Origin: Brevundimonas sp. UBA7635
GTDB lineage: Bacteria; Pseudomonadota; Alphaproteobacteria; Caulobacterales; Caulobacteraceae
DNA: 29,306 bases
Assembly (NCBI GenBank): GCA_002483865.1
Contig: DLIT01000170.1
Coordinates: 20,257-49,562 of the forward strand
Reading direction: 5' to 3'
This document shows positions 12,687-25,948 of this stretch, in pieces. Every line of letters starts with the position of its first letter. Position 1 is the first letter of the stretch. Under the pieces are notes generated by a model. That model was not told the origin of the DNA and searched no databases. It was given only the letters and a program-made list of their open reading frames with translations. Made by a program: the position numbers and the translations under genes.

Positions 12687-12875
12687 TTATGCCGCTGCTG
12701 CTGGCGCATTATTTATCAGATCGACCAGCGAACTGCGCAGGATCACGGTCCTGGAGCCGATCTTGCGGGCCTCAAGGCGGCCTTCCTTGATCAGCTTGTA
12801 GAGAGTCGTGCGCCCCAGCCCGGAAGCCTCAAGGGCCTCGGGGATGGAGTATGCGATCTTGGCGTTCTCGTTCAT
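12687..12875 (-). CDS. excisionase-like helix-turn-helix protein
   Basis: 62-residue MerR/excisionase-type HTH (HTH_17 class) with SIPEALEASGLGRTTLYKLIKEGRLEARKIGSRTVILRSS, the standard pattern of small DNA-binding directionality factors. The ATG at 12875 is used because AAGGAG precedes it at 7 bases and it overlaps the nuclease stop (ATGA); a GTG at 12881 is also in frame. It is the last gene of the leftward operon, where lambda has xis. The expected integrase gene does not follow. It could alternatively be a simple AlpA-like regulator. Confidence 0.8.
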   Translation of the reverse strand: MNENAKIAYSIPEALEASGLGRTTLYKLIKEGRLEARKIGSRTVILRSSLVDLINNAPAAAA

Positions 12876-13288
12876 TGCCACACTCCTTTCTTGTTGCGGC
12901 GGGCATCGTTCTCTTGCCCACGATATGGGTCGCCGTAGTTGGTCTCGGATATGGCCAGGCCTTCGCTGACGAGGGTGGCACCTAGATCCCGGCCACTGAT
13001 GGTGCAGACGGCCACGTTGCGCTGATAGCGGTCAGTGTCCGTGATGGTGCAGCGGGCCCCGTAGATGGCAAGCTGGCGAGCGCGGTCCCTGGCGGCGTTT
13101 GCAGTAGCCCGGCCCGTCGTGCAGGCCCAGATCGTCGGCTGGTTCCGGCAGCGGGTGAACGGCGCGGCTTCTCCCGCATCGATGCCTGCCAGGCGGATGC
13201 GGTGGCGCTCGCCGTCCTCGGTGACGCAGCGGCCGGAGTCGCCATCCGAAAGGACAAGGGCGGCGCAGATCAGGACGATGGGGGTCAT
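12872..13288 (-). CDS. thermonuclease (SNase-like) family protein
   Basis: 138 residues with a short hydrophobic N-terminus (MTPIVLICAALVLSDG), so possibly exported. The staphylococcal-nuclease-like core is visible: DGDSGRCVTEDGERHRIRLAGIDAGE, then DTDRYQRNVAVC (catalytic region equivalent to DRYGRxLA), and the C-terminal ENDARRNKKGVW. Members cut DNA or RNA with Ca2+. It overlaps both neighbours in the leftward operon by ATGA. Its role in the phage is unknown. Confidence 0.82.
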   Translation of the reverse strand: MTPIVLICAALVLSDGDSGRCVTEDGERHRIRLAGIDAGEAAPFTRCRNQPTIWACTTGRATANAARDRARQLAIYGARCTITDTDRYQRNVAVCTISGRDLGATLVSEGLAISETNYGDPYRGQENDARRNKKGVWQ

Positions 13289-16192: not shown

Positions 16193-16539
16193 TCGCCACC
16201 CCCGTCCTGCTCACCACGGGCGCGGGCGATGGTCGCTTCAAGCGATTTGGCCTGGCTGGCGTTAGCTGCGGCCTTCTGAGCGCCATCTACCGTCCCTTTG
16301 TCGAGATGCAGGACTTCGTATCGGCGGAATGTCTTTGCCGCCTCGACGCAGGCCTCCAGCAGATCAGGCGCGGCGGCGATCAGGCGGGCGTTGGCTTCGG
16401 TGTTCGGCGCGTAACAGAACTGCGTCGTGCACACAGCGTCATGCTCGGCGTCGATTTGCCAGCACTCTGGCATCCCATCGTGGGCCTCAATGGTCTTGTG
16501 GGCCGTCCAGCGGCCCGGCGTATGCTTCACCCCGCTCAT
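16189..16539 (-). CDS. hypothetical phage protein, NARLIAAAPDLLEA type
   Basis: 116 residues from the ATG at 16539. It starts MSGVKHTPGRW and contains NTEANARLIAAAPDLLEACVEA, a pair of motifs seen together in very many phage early proteins. The C-terminal 40 residues are helical and charged. Function unknown. It overlaps the methyltransferase upstream and the zinc-ribbon gene downstream by four bases each. Confidence 0.72.
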   Translation of the reverse strand: MSGVKHTPGRWTAHKTIEAHDGMPECWQIDAEHDAVCTTQFCYAPNTEANARLIAAAPDLLEACVEAAKTFRRYEVLHLDKGTVDGAQKAAANASQAKSLEATIARARGEQDGGGE

Positions 16540-17030
16540 GCCGCGATCCTTTCGGGTTGGGCGATGATGCCGAGGCCGTGGCTGGCTGCGCGGCGCAGGG
16601 CGGACACGGCGGACGGACCAGCGGCCCACAGGCAGGTGCCCGTGCCGGGGCTTTCTCCGACTGATCCATCAGGACGGATGAACTTCAGCTTCGGCGTGAA
16701 CAGCACCAGATCCGCGCGGTCCCATGCCTCGCGAAACCACGGCGCCGAGGTGCGGTCAGGCGTGAGGGCGATGCCCCGGCCGTGGTCGAAGAACTTGGTC
16801 AGCCACGCGCGCTTCGTGGACTGGTGGCCGAACGGCGGGTTCATCCAGATGAAGCCGGTCCAGTCGCGCTCAAGGCTGTCCTCTGTGATGAAGCGGCGAG
16901 CCGGAACGCTGACGTGCGTACGGTCAACCGGCGCCGCCACGTCCTCGTCAAAGCCGACGCCGAGCGCTTCGAAGACGTGCGGCGGCGTGTACCACTCGTT
17001 GCTCTCGCCAGCGCTCTCCCAGGCGCTCAT
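16536..17030 (-). CDS. phage-type DNA N6-adenine methyltransferase (Dam-like)
   Basis: 164 residues, the usual size of the phage Dam family (Pfam PF05869). It begins ESNEWYTPPHVFEALGVGFDED, as these enzymes do, and has the catalytic NPPF motif at about 64-67 in FIWMNPPFGH. Later come APWFREAWDRADLVLFTPKLKFIRPDG and a GTGTCLWAAG strand. It would methylate adenine in phage DNA, perhaps against host restriction. The acidic motif reads FDEDVAAP rather than FDLDPCA. It has no adjacent endonuclease, so it is an orphan methylase. Confidence 0.85.
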   Translation of the reverse strand: MSAWESAGESNEWYTPPHVFEALGVGFDEDVAAPVDRTHVSVPARRFITEDSLERDWTGFIWMNPPFGHQSTKRAWLTKFFDHGRGIALTPDRTSAPWFREAWDRADLVLFTPKLKFIRPDGSVGESPGTGTCLWAAGPSAVSALRRAASHGLGIIAQPERIAA

Positions 17031-22515: not shown

Positions 22516-22530
22516 CCTACAAAACGTAGA
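22516..22530 (-). promoter_or_regulatory. left operator 1 (overlapping the leftward promoter -10)
   Basis: Read on the - strand it is TCTACGTTTTGTAGG, a near match to right operator 1 (12 of 15 bases). A conserved CCTTGCGC lies exactly 6 bases upstream of it, as at the right side. TACGTT inside it is the likely -10 of the leftward promoter, so a bound repressor would block transcription. Confidence 0.7.
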
Positions 22531-22550
22531 CATCGAGCGCAAGGAAAAAA

Positions 22551-22565
22551 TCTACAAAATGTAGA
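22551..22565. promoter_or_regulatory. left operator 2
   Basis: TCTACA-AAA-TGTAGA, a perfect 6-base inverted repeat and the best match to the consensus of the set. Its centre is 35 bases from that of left operator 1. Confidence 0.75.
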
Positions 22566-22674: not shown

Positions 22675-22935
22675 ATGGCCGAGAAGACGATTTACTGCGC
22701 CCAGGCCTTCTGGTGGCGGGGCGGGAAGCTGAGGGGCGGGGAGGTCCACCAGTTCGCAACCGTGGACCGAGCTGTGGCTGGGGGCGAGGCTCTGTTTACC
22801 GGCGCGCCGGGCGTGGCCGTGTTCAGCGTGACCGGCCACCCGGACGTGGATCTATGGGGCGAGCCAGTGATGATACAGGCCCTGGGCGACGTGCCGTCCA
22901 TGGATGGCGAGGACTGGCACGGGATGGCCGCCTAA
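22675..22935 (+). CDS. hypothetical phage protein
   Basis: 86 residues, transcribed away from the leftward operon. An excellent ribosome site AAAGGAGGTGA lies about 7 bases upstream of the ATG. The sequence begins EKTIYCAQAFWWRGGKLRGGEVHQFATVDRAVAGGEAL and contains DLWGEPVMIQALGDVP. Similar small proteins occur in alphaproteobacterial prophages. A terminator lies about 100 bases after its stop. Function unknown. Confidence 0.75.
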   Translation: MAEKTIYCAQAFWWRGGKLRGGEVHQFATVDRAVAGGEALFTGAPGVAVFSVTGHPDVDLWGEPVMIQALGDVPSMDGEDWHGMAA

Positions 22936-23032
22936 GCGCCTGCGACAGTCTCGGTCGTGGGCGTGTTCTTGCCTCTCGACACAACCATGCGGCGTGATAT
23001 GACGCGGTTATGTTCAGGCGTCCAACCAACTG

Positions 23033-23056
23033 CCCCGCTTCGGCGGGGTTCTTTTT
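23033..23056 (+). terminator. rho-independent terminator
   Basis: Hairpin CCCCGC-TTCG-GCGGGG followed by TTCTTTTT. The six-base GC stem with a stable TTCG loop and T tract is a textbook intrinsic terminator on the + strand. It closes the 22675-22935 transcript and insulates the downstream three-Cys gene. Confidence 0.88.
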
Positions 23057-23175
23057 GCCCCGTCCGTAACCCAGACACGCAAACGACCGCTCGTGGGGCT
23101 CAACGGGAGCGGGCCGGTTGGGGTGATGATGTTTAGAACGATGAGATGAGTGAGGCGGCCGCGGACAGACAACGA

Positions 23176-23204
23176 TTCACAGGAATAATTTCCTGTGTCA
23201 TTAT
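23176..23204 (+). promoter_or_regulatory. putative promoter with internal dyad, upstream of the three-Cys gene
   Basis: TTCACA (23176-23181) and CATTAT (23199-23204) are 17 bases apart, a possible -35/-10 pair. Between and over them lies CACAGGAA-N4-TTCCTGTG (23178-23197), with perfect 8-base arms. The gene starts 55 bases downstream of the -10. The dyad is unlike the TCTACA operators, so a different regulator is implied. Confidence 0.5.
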
Positions 23205-23258
23205 AGCGCTCGGTAGGCACCAAAACTGCATTGCCAAACAGGCGCAGGAGGATGCTCG

Positions 23259-24014
23259 ATGGCCGACACAACGATTGAATGGACTGACGCGACTTGGAAT
23301 CCTGTCGCCGGTTGCCAGATCATCACGCCAGGTTGCTCGAACTGTTACGCCATGAGAATGGCAGCTCGCCTTGATGCTATGGGCGTCCAGAAATATCAGG
23401 GCCTCACGCGAAAGAGTGGTGATCGTTACGTTTGGACCGGAGTAGTCTTTTGCGATGAAGCATCTCTCGACGCACCGTTAAAGTGGCGTGCGCCAAGGAA
23501 AATATTCGTCAACTCTATGTCGGATCTATTCCACGAAGATGTGCCGGCTGATTTCATCAAGCGCGTATGGGCCACGATGCAGGCCACTCCGCACCATACT
23601 TATCAAGTTCTGACCAAGCGGCCGGAGCGCATGGCGGCAATTGTTGCCGGTGAGAACTTGCCGGTGCTGAGCAACGTATGGCTTGGAACGAGCGTCGAAG
23701 ACAGCAAGGTGATCGGCCGACTTGACCACCTGCGAGCTACGGCAGCTGCTGTAAGGTTTGTTTCTTTTGAGCCCCTTATCGGCTCAGTGGGTCAGGCTGA
23801 CCTCACGGGCATCCAGTGGGCCATCGTCGGAGGTGAGTCCGGCCCTCGCAGCCGTCCGATGTTGGAAGAATGGGTGGACGAGATCTATGAACTCTGCGCC
23901 GACGCTGGCACAGCCTTCTTCTTCAAACAGTGGGGAGGAAGGAACAAGAAGGCTACCGGCCGCTCCTTCAGGGGGCGGACCTTTGACGAGATGCCTCAAG
24001 CTTCTGCCTTCTGA
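23259..24014 (+). CDS. DUF5131 / phage Gp37-Gp68 family three-cysteine protein
   Basis: 251 residues. The N-terminus IEWTDATWNPVAGCQIITPGCSNCYAMRMA carries the family's CX6CX2C cluster (Cys19, Cys26, Cys29), reminiscent of radical-SAM iron-sulfur motifs. Other family marks are KIFVNSMSDLFHEDVP, HTYQVLTKRPERM, NVWLGTSVED, VRFVSFEPLIG, WAIVGGESGP and the end FFFKQWGGRNKK...GRTFDEMP. An AGGAGG site is 7 bases before the ATG. The family (Pfam PF07505) is regularly encoded next to TcmP, as here. Biochemical function is not known to me. Its last 47 bases overlap the convergent TcmP gene. The DNA is more AT-rich than phage neighbours. Confidence 0.9.
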   Translation: MADTTIEWTDATWNPVAGCQIITPGCSNCYAMRMAARLDAMGVQKYQGLTRKSGDRYVWTGVVFCDEASLDAPLKWRAPRKIFVNSMSDLFHEDVPADFIKRVWATMQATPHHTYQVLTKRPERMAAIVAGENLPVLSNVWLGTSVEDSKVIGRLDHLRATAAAVRFVSFEPLIGSVGQADLTGIQWAIVGGESGPRSRPMLEEWVDEIYELCADAGTAFFFKQWGGRNKKATGRSFRGRTFDEMPQASAF

Positions 24015-24900
24015 TCAGGTCTGAGACCGCCTTCTTGGCAAGCCCTATGGCTTTCGGACTGTCATTTGAGACTAGGAGAAACAGCGCAAATTTCTGTTGG
24101 TTTCCAGGACCAATTGACAATGGTTCGGAGACAAAGGGAAAGAGCTCTTTCAGGCGTCGCTGCACATAGGCTTCGATGTCTCGACGATTACCTCTGCGCC
24201 GCTGAGTCGTGGCCTCGAAGAACAAATCGCCTGCAATCACTTCGTCTTGGTAGAGATCTGTCTGCCACTCCGGTCCTCCAAAGATGAAGTCGAGCTTGCG
24301 CTGTTTAGCCTGATCGACTCCTTCGAAACTACGGGCAAGTTGTCGACCGACCGCCTCGATGGGGAATAGATACCAAACGTCGAAGCGCTTAGTGGCAGCT
24401 AAAAGCTCAAGCGTCTGCCAAGAAACTTGCATCCCATATGGATCCAAGAACACCACGCCTCGACGAAGCCCTTTGCCTGCACCCGGCAGGCGCCATTCGG
24501 CTGACTTCAAGAGCTTTGCAAGTTCTTCGTTCGCGTCGCCATGGATGCACTGCACCCGACTATCGTCACGGAGCGCACATAAAGCCGCGTAGCGGGTAGG
24601 GTCAGCCTCGATGAGAACCACCCGTTGAAAGGGCGGCTTAATCGCTAGAGCCCGCTTGGCAGACCCATCGAGTTGCACGACTTCGTGGCCGATCGGCTGC
24701 TGGACGAACAGTCCTCCGGTCTGCCGGGCGGCTGTCCTCTCCCCAGATCCGGCGAAGGCGTCAACATACCAAAGGTCAAATGACCAAGACGCGTCGGCTT
24801 TGCCCTTCAGAGCAGTGGTGTAGAACTGTAGATAGTAGAACAGTGCATCAAGCTTCTGTTCGGTCCAGTCGCCACCAAAGGTGTGTTCAGCTTCCCTCAT
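23968..24900 (-). CDS. tcmP: three-Cys-motif partner protein TcmP, methyltransferase fold
   Basis: 310 residues. It begins FGGDWTEQKLDALFYYLQFYTTAL, typical of TcmP proteins. A Rossmann methyltransferase pattern follows: motif I-like YVDAFAGSGE (45-54), acidic strand VVLIEADP (94-101), HGDAN (120-124) and the motif IV-like VVFLDPYGMQ (149-158). The rest includes WYLFPIEAVGR and FGGPEWQ. TcmP is defined by its pairing with DUF5131 proteins (TIGRFAM TIGR04474, from memory). It lies in the same orientation as the repressor and lipoprotein genes, 102 bases after the latter, and ends inside the DUF5131 gene. A GGGGGAGGG stretch precedes its ATG at short spacing. Substrate unknown. Confidence 0.88.
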   Translation of the reverse strand: MREAEHTFGGDWTEQKLDALFYYLQFYTTALKGKADASWSFDLWYVDAFAGSGERTAARQTGGLFVQQPIGHEVVQLDGSAKRALAIKPPFQRVVLIEADPTRYAALCALRDDSRVQCIHGDANEELAKLLKSAEWRLPGAGKGLRRGVVFLDPYGMQVSWQTLELLAATKRFDVWYLFPIEAVGRQLARSFEGVDQAKQRKLDFIFGGPEWQTDLYQDEVIAGDLFFEATTQRRRGNRRDIEAYVQRRLKELFPFVSEPLSIGPGNQQKFALFLLVSNDSPKAIGLAKKAVSDLIRRQKLEASRQRSAP

Positions 24901-25002
24901 ACCCTCCCCCGAGGTTATCCGGCATTTAGCTCTGACTTACTAAGCCCTCCGCGTAATCCACCTGATCCGGCCGATGACGCGGACCCGGGCGACACCCTGA
25001 TG

Positions 25003-25266
25003 TCAGAAATATCGCTCGGGCAGGCAGGTGATCGACCCGTGGCCTGTCGCCTCGTTATAGGCCCCCAGGGCCGAGGCGACCTGCTTCAGCTCCGACTTCT
25101 GGATTTCGCAATCAGACTTGGACAGATCCCGCGCAACAATGTTTTCAGTGTTGCCGATCGCGTGGACAAGTCGATAGGTGTCCGCAGGCTCCTGCGTCTG
25201 CGGATTTCCGCACCCGCTGACCAATGCGGCGGCAAGCGCAGCGACAAATATGAGACCTTTTCGCAC
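25003..25266 (-). CDS. small lipoprotein in the immunity region
   Basis: 87 residues from a GTG (25266) with GGGAGG 5 bases upstream; an ATG at 25284 would add six residues. The signal peptide (KGLIFVAALAAALVSGC) ends in the lipobox LVSGC, so the mature protein would be lipid-anchored at Cys19 or so. The mature part is short, with NTENIVARDLSKSDCEIQKSELKQVASALGAYNEATGH and two further cysteines that may form a disulfide. It follows the repressor by 34 bases in the same orientation and could be expressed in the lysogen. A role in superinfection exclusion is possible but unproven. Confidence 0.75.
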   Translation of the reverse strand: MRKGLIFVAALAAALVSGCGNPQTQEPADTYRLVHAIGNTENIVARDLSKSDCEIQKSELKQVASALGAYNEATGHGSITCLPERYF

Positions 25267-25281
25267 CAGAGCCTCCCGCCT

Positions 25282-25297
25282 CATTCACCTGTGAATG
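25282..25297. repeat. inverted repeat between repressor and lipoprotein genes
   Basis: CATTCAC-CT-GTGAATG, perfect 7-base arms, directly after the repressor stop. GATAAT just upstream on the - strand (25305-25300) could be a -10 for the lipoprotein, placing the dyad at its transcription start. It shares the 9-mer ATTCACAGG (on the - strand) with the dyad in front of the three-Cys gene. Confidence 0.5.
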
Positions 25298-25300
25298 TCA

Positions 25301-25615
25301 TTATCCGTCCGTGCCGGTCTTGGCGAAGACCTTGAGCATTTCCAGCGCCCGTGGCCGATCATCGGACGGGATTGACGCCCAGACGTCCAAGATGGCGGTC
25401 GGCAGGTCATTCGGATCGTGGTCGAGAATATAGCCCGGCGACGTATTCAGCGCCTCGGCAAGGGCAGGGAGCCACTTGCTCGTCAGCTTTCGCGCGCCCG
25501 TCTCCCAGTGGCCAATGCTGGCCACCGAGCAGCCCACCTTTAGGGCGAGCTCTTCCTGCGTCATGTGCCGGAAAGTCCGCCACGCAGCCAGGTGATTAGT
25601 ATAGGGGCCGGTCAT
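25301..25615 (-). CDS. CI-type phage repressor, XRE family, without peptidase domain
   Basis: 104 residues from the ATG at 25615. The HTH (about 8-60) reads HLAAWRTFRHMTQEELALKVGCSVASIGHWETGARKLTSKWLPALAEALNTSPGYIL, a standard XRE/CI fold. The C-terminal 40 residues are a short helical tail (IPSDDRPRALEMLKVFAKTG), perhaps for dimerisation. There is no S24 self-cleavage domain. It is divergent from the Cro-like gene and flanked by three operators, one of which ends one base before its ATG. No ribosome site is visible, so the message may be leaderless. The longer frame upstream reads through the operators and is rejected. Confidence 0.85.
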   Translation of the reverse strand: MTGPYTNHLAAWRTFRHMTQEELALKVGCSVASIGHWETGARKLTSKWLPALAEALNTSPGYILDHDPNDLPTAILDVWASIPSDDRPRALEMLKVFAKTGTDG

Positions 25616-25685: not shown

Positions 25686-25700
25686 TCTACAATATGTAGG
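25686..25700 (+). promoter_or_regulatory. right operator 1 (overlapping the rightward promoter -10)
   Basis: TCTACA-ATA-TGTAGG, strongly palindromic. TACAAT (25688-25693) within it is a good -10 for the Cro-like gene, whose ATG is 15 bases downstream. CCTTGCGC (25672-25679) precedes it by 6 bases, exactly as at the leftward promoter. Confidence 0.75.
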
Positions 25701-25708
25701 GTTGCGGC

Positions 25709-25948
25709 ATGGCAAAAACCTCCGCTCAAACCCTGATCGACGCCGGGCTGTCTAAGAGCTTCGCCTATCACGTGATGAATGGCGTTCGAGCCATCAGCGT
25801 GCCGCTGGCCCTTTGGCTTCACGAAAATGACGGCCTGCGAGTCGGCCCGCTCGAAGGAGCCGCGCCGGCCAAGATCAAGGCTCTGCGCTCCATCTACGAG
25901 CCCAAGGCCCCCAAGAGCGTCCTCCAGCGGCGCCAGAAGCGAGCCTGA
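25709..25948 (+). CDS. Cro-like DNA-binding protein
   Basis: 79 residues. SAQTLIDAGLSKSFAYHVMNGVRAISVPLALWLHENDGLRVGPL looks like a compact XRE/Cro HTH, followed by a basic tail KSVLQRRQKRA. It is the first gene of the rightward transcript, divergent from the repressor, with its -10 inside an operator. This is the position and size expected of Cro, the antagonist that turns off early transcription. An AGGG lies about 8 bases before the ATG. Confidence 0.8.
   Translation: MAKTSAQTLIDAGLSKSFAYHVMNGVRAISVPLALWLHENDGLRVGPLEGAAPAKIKALRSIYEPKAPKSVLQRRQKRA

Follow-up and report, generated by a model that had tools for sequence, protein, structure and literature searches.

The convergent genes for a DUF5131 protein and its partner TcmP, found in a 29,306-nucleotide stretch of Brevundimonas sp. 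UBA7635 (contig DLIT01000170.1, positions 20,257 to 49,562; the whole stretch is called the window below), are shown here to form one block, which lies in a slot of variable cargo, with the left operators to one side and the repressor to the other, within a lambda-like prophage region. The description that fits the pair best is that of a defence candidate of M41 type, borne by temperate phages in the rex slot; its composition is unexpected, with DUF5131 kept nearly constant and TcmP swapped. We put at about even the chance that it is a prophage exclusion (anti-phage) cassette expressed in the lysogen, in which a constant radical enzyme and a swappable specificity partner are predicted to act on nucleic acid.

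The limits of the block follow from comparison with an IMG/VR contig (L017), which matches window positions 23173-24921 at 87.7% nucleotide identity and has nothing similar by blastn in the DNA directly adjoining on either side. L017 keeps the gene order of the window: first a small open reading frame (ORF), judged by eye to be a likely homologue, then DUF5131 and TcmP, next the gene of an exported protein and that of an HTH_3 repressor, and at a greater distance one like DnaB. A further locus, L045, is 75% identical to the window over 23145-24930 and 88% identical to L017 over 10 kb; as close relatives the two are counted as one, a second, diverged phage group with the pair at the same position. 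The other side of the evidence comes from sister prophages of the same genus, seven of which were fetched from the eight genomes, among the 130 others, that have relatives of the repressor. All seven keep the repressor and an ORF of 86 amino acids, and three (L212-L214) have the same operator family with conserved spacing (left pairs 34-35 bp, right operators 69 bp apart). The slot between the 86-amino acid ORF and the repressor ranges from 330 bp to 3.7 kb and has other contents: a single membrane ORF in L212 (the slot of 330 bp) and, by Pfam, SocA_Panacea and SHOCT proteins in L213, GNAT and SNase proteins in L214 and a P63C protein in L218, the slot ORFs scanned from L215 and L217 giving no Pfam match. 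A distant DUF5131 (31% identity) is encoded on the L218 contig as well, about 6 kb beyond the slot. The lower GC content noticed in the original prediction was borne out (0.53-0.58 where the counting windows cover the pair, 0.59-0.70 in the phage windows around it); since the slot is richer in AT than its flanks in 7/7 sisters, this is a property of the slot. The start at 22675 that had been proposed is that of the separate 86-amino acid ORF (22675-22935), and because this ORF occurs in sisters that have no cassette there, and because of the block common with L017, the cassette is taken to be approximately 23173-24921.

Read from left to right, the region has a lambda-like order, with the leftward genes of SSB, an ORF that looks by eye like a YqaJ-type nuclease, and ERF; this continues with two left operators, the rightward 86-amino acid ORF, DUF5131, TcmP, a lipoprotein, the HTH_3 repressor, the right operator, an ORF in the position of cro, a CII-like ORF and DnaB. 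It is on account of the ERF, SSB, DnaB, CII-like and repressor genes that we speak of a prophage. The genome is 66.9% complete, and the window is the right-hand end of a 49.6-kb contig, which stops just past the DnaB gene. The features are as follows.

22517..22564, no strand: left operator pair CTACAAAACGTAG, CTACAAAATGTAG (starts 22517 and 22552, 35 bp apart), from a pattern search
22675..22935, + strand: phage ORF of 86 amino acids, left edge of the variable slot and outside the cassette; tblastn match in 7/7 sister loci
23032..23059, + strand: terminator-like hairpin and T run between the 86-amino acid ORF and the cassette, from a terminator scan
23173..24921, no strand: cassette, the block common with L017
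23176..23204, + strand: promoter-like site TTCACA-17-CATTAT with TG ahead of the second hexamer, containing the palindrome CACAGGAATAATTTCCTGTG
23259..24014, + strand: DUF5131 protein, 251 amino acids, predicted radical-SAM-type barrel, C-x6-C-x2-C
23968..24900, - strand: TcmP, 310 amino acids, predicted RlmJ/Trm1-like methyltransferase fold; 47-bp tail-to-tail overlap with DUF5131
25003..25284, - strand: lipoprotein, 93 amino acids, lipobox VSGC, adjoining the repressor; separate immunity-operon cargo
25301..25615, - strand: HTH_3 repressor, 104 amino acids; relatives at E <= 1e-6 in 8/130 other genus genomes
25687..25699, no strand: right operator CTACAATATGTAG, from the pattern search; a half-site match (by eye) begins 69 bp leftward
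25709..25948, + strand: cro-position ORF, 79 amino acids, no Pfam match; homologues adjoin the repressor in L212, L213 and L214

Family matches and operators thus agree with where the pair had been placed earlier, in a lambda-like region with the left operators before it and the repressor after it. Operator sites with at most one mismatch number three against 0.18 expected, and none of 100 shuffles reaches three, for a pattern that was composed after the sites had been seen.

The DUF5131 protein belongs to PF07505 (319.3 bits; gathering cut-off 28.9) and TcmP to TIGR04474 (164.8 bits; curated cut-off 53). In PADLOC-DB 2.0.0, TcmP matches PDC-M41A and DUF5131 matches PDC-M41B (E 6e-72 and 3e-104, respectively), from adjacent and indeed overlapping genes. 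A defence role for the pair is therefore not a new idea, as it is already the PADLOC candidate PDC-M41, made by co-location; PDC-M41 (TcmP plus DUF5131) has a relative in PDC-M30, and it is the M41 models that both window proteins fit. The PDC entries are 'guilt-by-embedding' computational candidates, called nonexperimentally validated in PMC10855318. The literature searched yielded no experimental test of the DUF5131-TcmP pair or PDC-M41, and no description of its prophage slot, convergent layout or allele swapping. What is new here is the recurrence in Gordonia phages in a slot of the CarolAnn type, the variable cargo in sister prophages, the pattern of constant DUF5131 and exchanged TcmP, and the fold predictions.

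That the two families go together, as the original prediction assumed, is clear from both genomes and viruses. PDC-M41A matches occur in 13/289 genomes of the same class (that of the window included), and in each of the 13 the fetched stretch contains DUF5131. Among viral contigs, 63 have TcmP; DUF5131 is within 3 kb in 56 of these (49 convergent, seven on the same strand) and absent from that range in seven; with one contig for each cluster of TcmP at 90% identity (n=53), 48 have it, 41 convergent and seven on the same strand, leaving five without. Convergence is also seen in 3/4 other genus genomes having a TcmP of the window type and in two Synechococcus phage records. Viewed from DUF5131, for which the best 80 of at least 581 viral matches were taken, 36/80 loci lack a detected TcmP, eight of these lying near a contig end. 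Five phages with DUF5131 at <=46% identity (RR1-A, RcapNL, prophiT36-2a, TChen and Confidence) have no TcmP in the fetched stretch, as judged with a broader profile; the first TcmP profile (A3) had overlooked the true TcmPs of Angelique and Bosnia. These loci (L116-L120) contain a second type of DUF5131, without TcmP, among RecT, DNA methyltransferase or replication genes, and some phage records name it an RNA methyltransferase.

Gordonia phages provide both the most informative recurrence of the pair and the clearest view of its exchange. Ten of them, Easley included, have a DUF5131 at least 92% identical to that of Easley, and seven were examined by region (Easley, Angelique, BaxterFox, ThankyouJordi, Bosnia, Jablanski and Fairfaxidum). 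In all seven, metalloprotease-type and helix-turn-helix (HTH) genes lie to the left of the convergent DUF5131 and TcmP genes, near the integrase, and in six an annotated repressor follows TcmP on the same strand, with an HTH or cro-like gene after it; the exception is Jablanski, where TcmP is followed by two other ORFs and it is the divergent gene that bears the name immunity repressor. TcmP is annotated in these phages as 'methyltransferase' or hypothetical; TIGR04474 confirms it in the five phages scanned, and those of Jablanski and Fairfaxidum were identified with our own profile, of which Jablanski is a member and Fairfaxidum is not. In BaxterFox (L113 3495-4247) the DUF5131 frame is open and matching, with a start codon of our choice, but is unannotated, the record calling two small ORFs on the opposite strand instead.

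The flanking genes are also those of the phage CarolAnn, whose gp42 is 98% identical to the BaxterFox metalloprotease and whose gp41 is 71% identical to the Easley HTH protein, both beside the integrase. CarolAnn genes 43 and 44, between these flanks and the repressor, are reported to be coexpressed with the repressor, to defend against cluster CZ phages and to resemble RexAB (PMC6426606); the place of the CarolAnn repressor is likewise taken from that paper, as the fetched stretch stops inside gene 44. Given these common metalloprotease and HTH flanks, the pair occupies a slot with a proven defence tenant (gp43/gp44). The suggestion that the pair has the rexAB position is thereby supported and extended, through L017/L045, the repressor-adjacent arrangement in 6/7 Gordonia phages and the slot of gp43/gp44. 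In the window, TcmP lies on the repressor's side and strand with the lipoprotein between, and DUF5131 is on the opposite strand. The likeness to lambda RexAB and CarolAnn gp43/gp44 is one of place beside the repressor, the CarolAnn slot being bounded by a metalloprotease gene of the BaxterFox type. It does not extend to sequence, as Pfam and PADLOC scans of both proteins give only DUF5131 and PDC models, with no match to RexA, RexB or DUF4747; nor does it extend to composition, as RexAB is a sensor plus a channel whereas the pair consists of predicted enzymes with no polytopic membrane partner. BstA, a prophage-encoded phage defence of Gram-negative bacteria, is likewise prophage-borne and is likened here by description only (PMC8585504). 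In Nymphadora (L220 6834-8131) the same slot holds a different convergent pair, genes 42 and 43, which face each other before the repressor and have no match to the DUF5131 or TcmP profiles; the record note for gene 42 reads 'HipA toxin, toxin-antitoxin system?'.

Among six of the Gordonia phages DUF5131 is 92-97% identical and the metalloprotease 89-97%, whereas the TcmP groups are 21-27% identical; the TcmP of Fairfaxidum is 51% identical to that of Jablanski and 24-25% to the others compared, and for these last figures a control with shuffled sequences was uninformative, end gaps being free. A similar contrast exists between L017 and L045, in which TcmP is 57-72% and DUF5131 94-97% identical in DNA windows. 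More widely, the identity of DUF5131 exceeds that of TcmP in 95% of 1431 comparisons from 54 viral pairs, comparisons that are not independent of one another. From this pattern we infer diversifying selection on TcmP. It could instead be that the diversity is mere mosaicism of the immunity module, TcmP hitch-hiking on exchange of the repressor with no role in specificity. The repressor region of L017 and L045 also falls to 66-68% identity, and repressors differ in most Gordonia pairs, as such mosaicism would have it. Yet TcmP and repressor reassort: Easley and Bosnia have repressors 85% and cro 93% identical with TcmP at 21%, Easley and ThankyouJordi have TcmP at 97% and repressors at 37%, and Angelique and Bosnia have TcmP at 88% and repressors at 30% (for Jablanski, the labels 'repressor' and 'cro' in this comparison are ours). 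TcmP is therefore exchanged on its own, and pure hitch-hiking with the repressor is rejected; as the excess of DUF5131 identity over that of TcmP also counts against it, mosaicism without a role in specificity seems to us unlikely.

The nature of the proposed exclusion depends on what the two proteins are. The three-cysteine motif singled out in the original prediction is present as C19-x6-C26-x2-C29, and C-x6-C-x2-C is kept in 147/147 distinct DUF5131 sequences; the DPYG motif of TcmP is present also. The structure predicted for DUF5131 is a barrel of the radical S-adenosylmethionine (SAM) type, nearest to spore photoproduct lyase, and so has the fold of that superfamily, and the radical SAM model TIGR04471 matches it with E 8.8e-21 (74 bits, below the cut-off of 355). 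The canonical motif of the superfamily is C-x3-C-x2-C, and variants with other spacing are known; DUF5131 departs from the canonical form. It differs in cysteine spacing from the radical SAM enzymes spore photoproduct lyase, viperin and RlmN, and a search of the PDB by sequence gave a best E of 0.69 (0.1 for TcmP). TcmP is predicted to adopt a methyltransferase fold like that of RlmJ, which acts at N6 of A2030 in 23S rRNA, and Trm1, which acts at G26 of tRNA. The likeness is of fold, the sequence match to the RlmJ/RsmJ family (PF04378) being marginal: the window TcmP has no Pfam match, and one of 68 aligned proteins reaches RsmJ, at E 0.011 only. We infer from the models that DUF5131 is probably a radical-SAM enzyme with a fixed chemistry on nucleic acid, and a mechanism based on modification is plausible.

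The exclusion cassette might then operate as follows. In the lysogen, TcmP would be made together with the repressor. DUF5131 would supply one fixed radical-SAM chemistry on nucleic acid, and TcmP would select, and probably N-methylate, an RNA or DNA target. An infecting phage whose nucleic acid or factor fitted the resident TcmP would suffer a damaging modification and a failed, or abortive, infection; TcmP would be variable because it is the part engaged in an arms race. More tentatively, the system may have two parts, one conserved radical-SAM enzyme and any of several highly diverged methyltransferase-fold partners traded among temperate phages in one fixed slot next to the repressor, such that the TcmP allele would set which nucleic acid or rival phage is attacked and related phages with different alleles would exclude each other. 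The exchangeable specificity subunit of type I restriction offers a parallel to such an allele, from which the pair would differ by its radical chemistry on RNA or DNA. Exclusion genes expressed by the lysogen from beside the repressor are already known (RexAB, CarolAnn), but among known genes of this kind we found none with a predicted radical enzyme and a swappable partner of methyltransferase fold. If the TcmP allele does set the spectrum of exclusion, this would be a new chemistry for phage defence. The natural alleles, already exchanged in isolated, culturable Gordonia phages, form a simple experimental series with one DUF5131, and two proteins of unknown function gain a concrete, testable role.

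Such enzymes could instead serve the phage itself. The pair might modify the phage's own nucleic acid or the host's tRNA or rRNA, and so escape restriction or sustain translation, its place in the immunity region doing no more than time its expression. In RcapNL, prophiT36-2a, TChen, Confidence and RR1-A the DUF5131 gene has no TcmP beside it and its neighbours are genes for DNA methyltransferase, RecT, SSB or replication, and the fold of TcmP is nearest to N-methyltransferases of rRNA and tRNA, both of which would suit self-modification or counter-defence. It is the paired form, however, that sits with lysogeny genes, as illustrated by the TcmP that adjoins an annotated repressor on its strand in 6/7 Gordonia phages, and the associations with PADLOC, BREX and hna speak for host defence. 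We regard this alternative, too, as improbable. A toxin-antitoxin-like addiction or stabilisation module of the prophage is less probable still: the genes are two and small, and sister slots hold SocA_Panacea and GNAT, families seen in toxin-antitoxin systems (GNAT proteins are associated with toxins), but one constant partner (DUF5131) and another with highly diverged alleles (TcmP) would be unexpected for a cognate toxin and antitoxin, the genes are convergent, and DUF5131 also occurs without detected TcmP, in the 36/80 viral loci and 5/5 low-identity phages mentioned above.

The exclusion reading gains from a link of the pair with immunity regions, although the link is clear in the first of two sets of contigs only. 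The first set was drawn by TcmP; 50/63 contigs were searched, leaving out 13 shorter ones, and 40 remained, with HTH_3 hits taken at E <= 0.001. HTH_3 lies within 2.5 kb in 26/40, against 8.2 expected at random placement (reached in 0/2000 simulations), and 19 of these 26 have the HTH gene on the TcmP strand, upstream of TcmP. Clustering by TcmP identity leaves at least one member near HTH_3 in 19/29 clusters at 70% and in 14/21 at 50%. By type, proximity is found in 20/29 convergent pairs, in 2/6 on the same strand and in 4/5 TcmP without DUF5131, so that the immunity link may follow TcmP. The second set, drawn by DUF5131, is broader and includes many loci with a more distant TcmP; 50/80 loci were searched and 36 had HTH_3, leaving out 12 on contigs of the TcmP draw, eight with DUF5131 near a contig end and ten more (short contigs and L200). 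Proximity here is not significant, being found in 2/7 convergent pairs (1.5 expected), 5/12 on the same strand (3.1) and 5/17 without TcmP (2.9). This weighs against the exclusion reading, and a general immunity-region rule for every DUF5131 is rejected. The enrichment of pairs in prophage immunity regions that the original prediction looked for therefore stands in the set drawn by TcmP and fails in that drawn by DUF5131; both sets undercount, HTH_3 being only one type of repressor.

Association with defence is supported indirectly, by PDC-M41 in PADLOC, by a BREX neighbour on a Nostoc plasmid and by TcmP being listed directly after the defence gene hna. On the Nostoc plasmid pC052_C (L111 1306-9894) TcmP is beside an annotated radical SAM protein and close to the BREX genes pglZ and brxL. 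In pSymA of S. meliloti (L110 6343-12004) an ORF of 845 amino acids, probably hna, is followed by TcmP and then by a second TcmP-type ORF, with DUF5131 on the other strand; thus two TcmP-type genes are present in one defence locus.

The two genes of the cassette may be read from different transcripts. TcmP and the lipoprotein share the strand of the repressor, as had been noted earlier, and the scan finds no terminator-like site on that strand; TcmP starts 102 bp downstream of the lipoprotein and, from its position, could be reached by read-through of the repressor transcript. DUF5131 is outside the repressor operon because it lies on the opposite strand, convergent with TcmP, and it has its own promoter-like site. 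Such sites number three in 4 kb against 0.9 expected, which is weak evidence, and the terminator-like sites (three, against 3.3 expected by shuffling) are not significant. Embedded in the promoter-like site ahead of DUF5131 is the 20-bp palindrome CACAGGAATAATTTCCTGTG (23178-23197), found exactly in the window, L017 and L045 only among the loci compared and nowhere else in 131 genus genomes. A host regulon for it is rejected, as those genomes have it in one other place, with one mismatch; so is a general cassette feature, as the other loci examined, viral and genomic, showed none ahead of DUF5131.

The lipoprotein had been grouped with the pair, but it lies outside the block common with L017 and is unmatched in the 130 other genus genomes (131 in all), and it is rejected as a third component of the cassette. 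In our view it is a separate gene of envelope type, for exclusion or conversion. In 8/9 loci (the window, L017, L212, L213, L214, L215, L217 and L218, the exception being L216) the repressor is adjoined, on its own strand, by an ORF with a membrane segment or a hydrophobic N-terminus, with ORFs picked by eye; those next to the repressors of the sisters were selected by us, as was the start codon of the L215 exported protein. Examples are at 25003-25284 in the window, 7426-7986 in L017, 6823-7101 in L212, 6910-7104 in L213 and 6475-6960 in L217. The same measure of hydrophobicity picks out 13/175 predicted genes in the sister loci and 9/42 in the window. These exported, lipo- or membrane proteins have no mutual similarity at E 0.01, and constitute a positional class, probably of envelope exclusion or conversion genes.

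Elsewhere in the window, a tRNA scan found none, and the genes left of about 12.5 kb look like those of the host (a histidine kinase, a beta-lactamase-family protein and a LuxR-type regulator). The left arm also encodes a Dam-type N6-adenine methyltransferase (16539-17030) and an SNase homologue (12875-13288).

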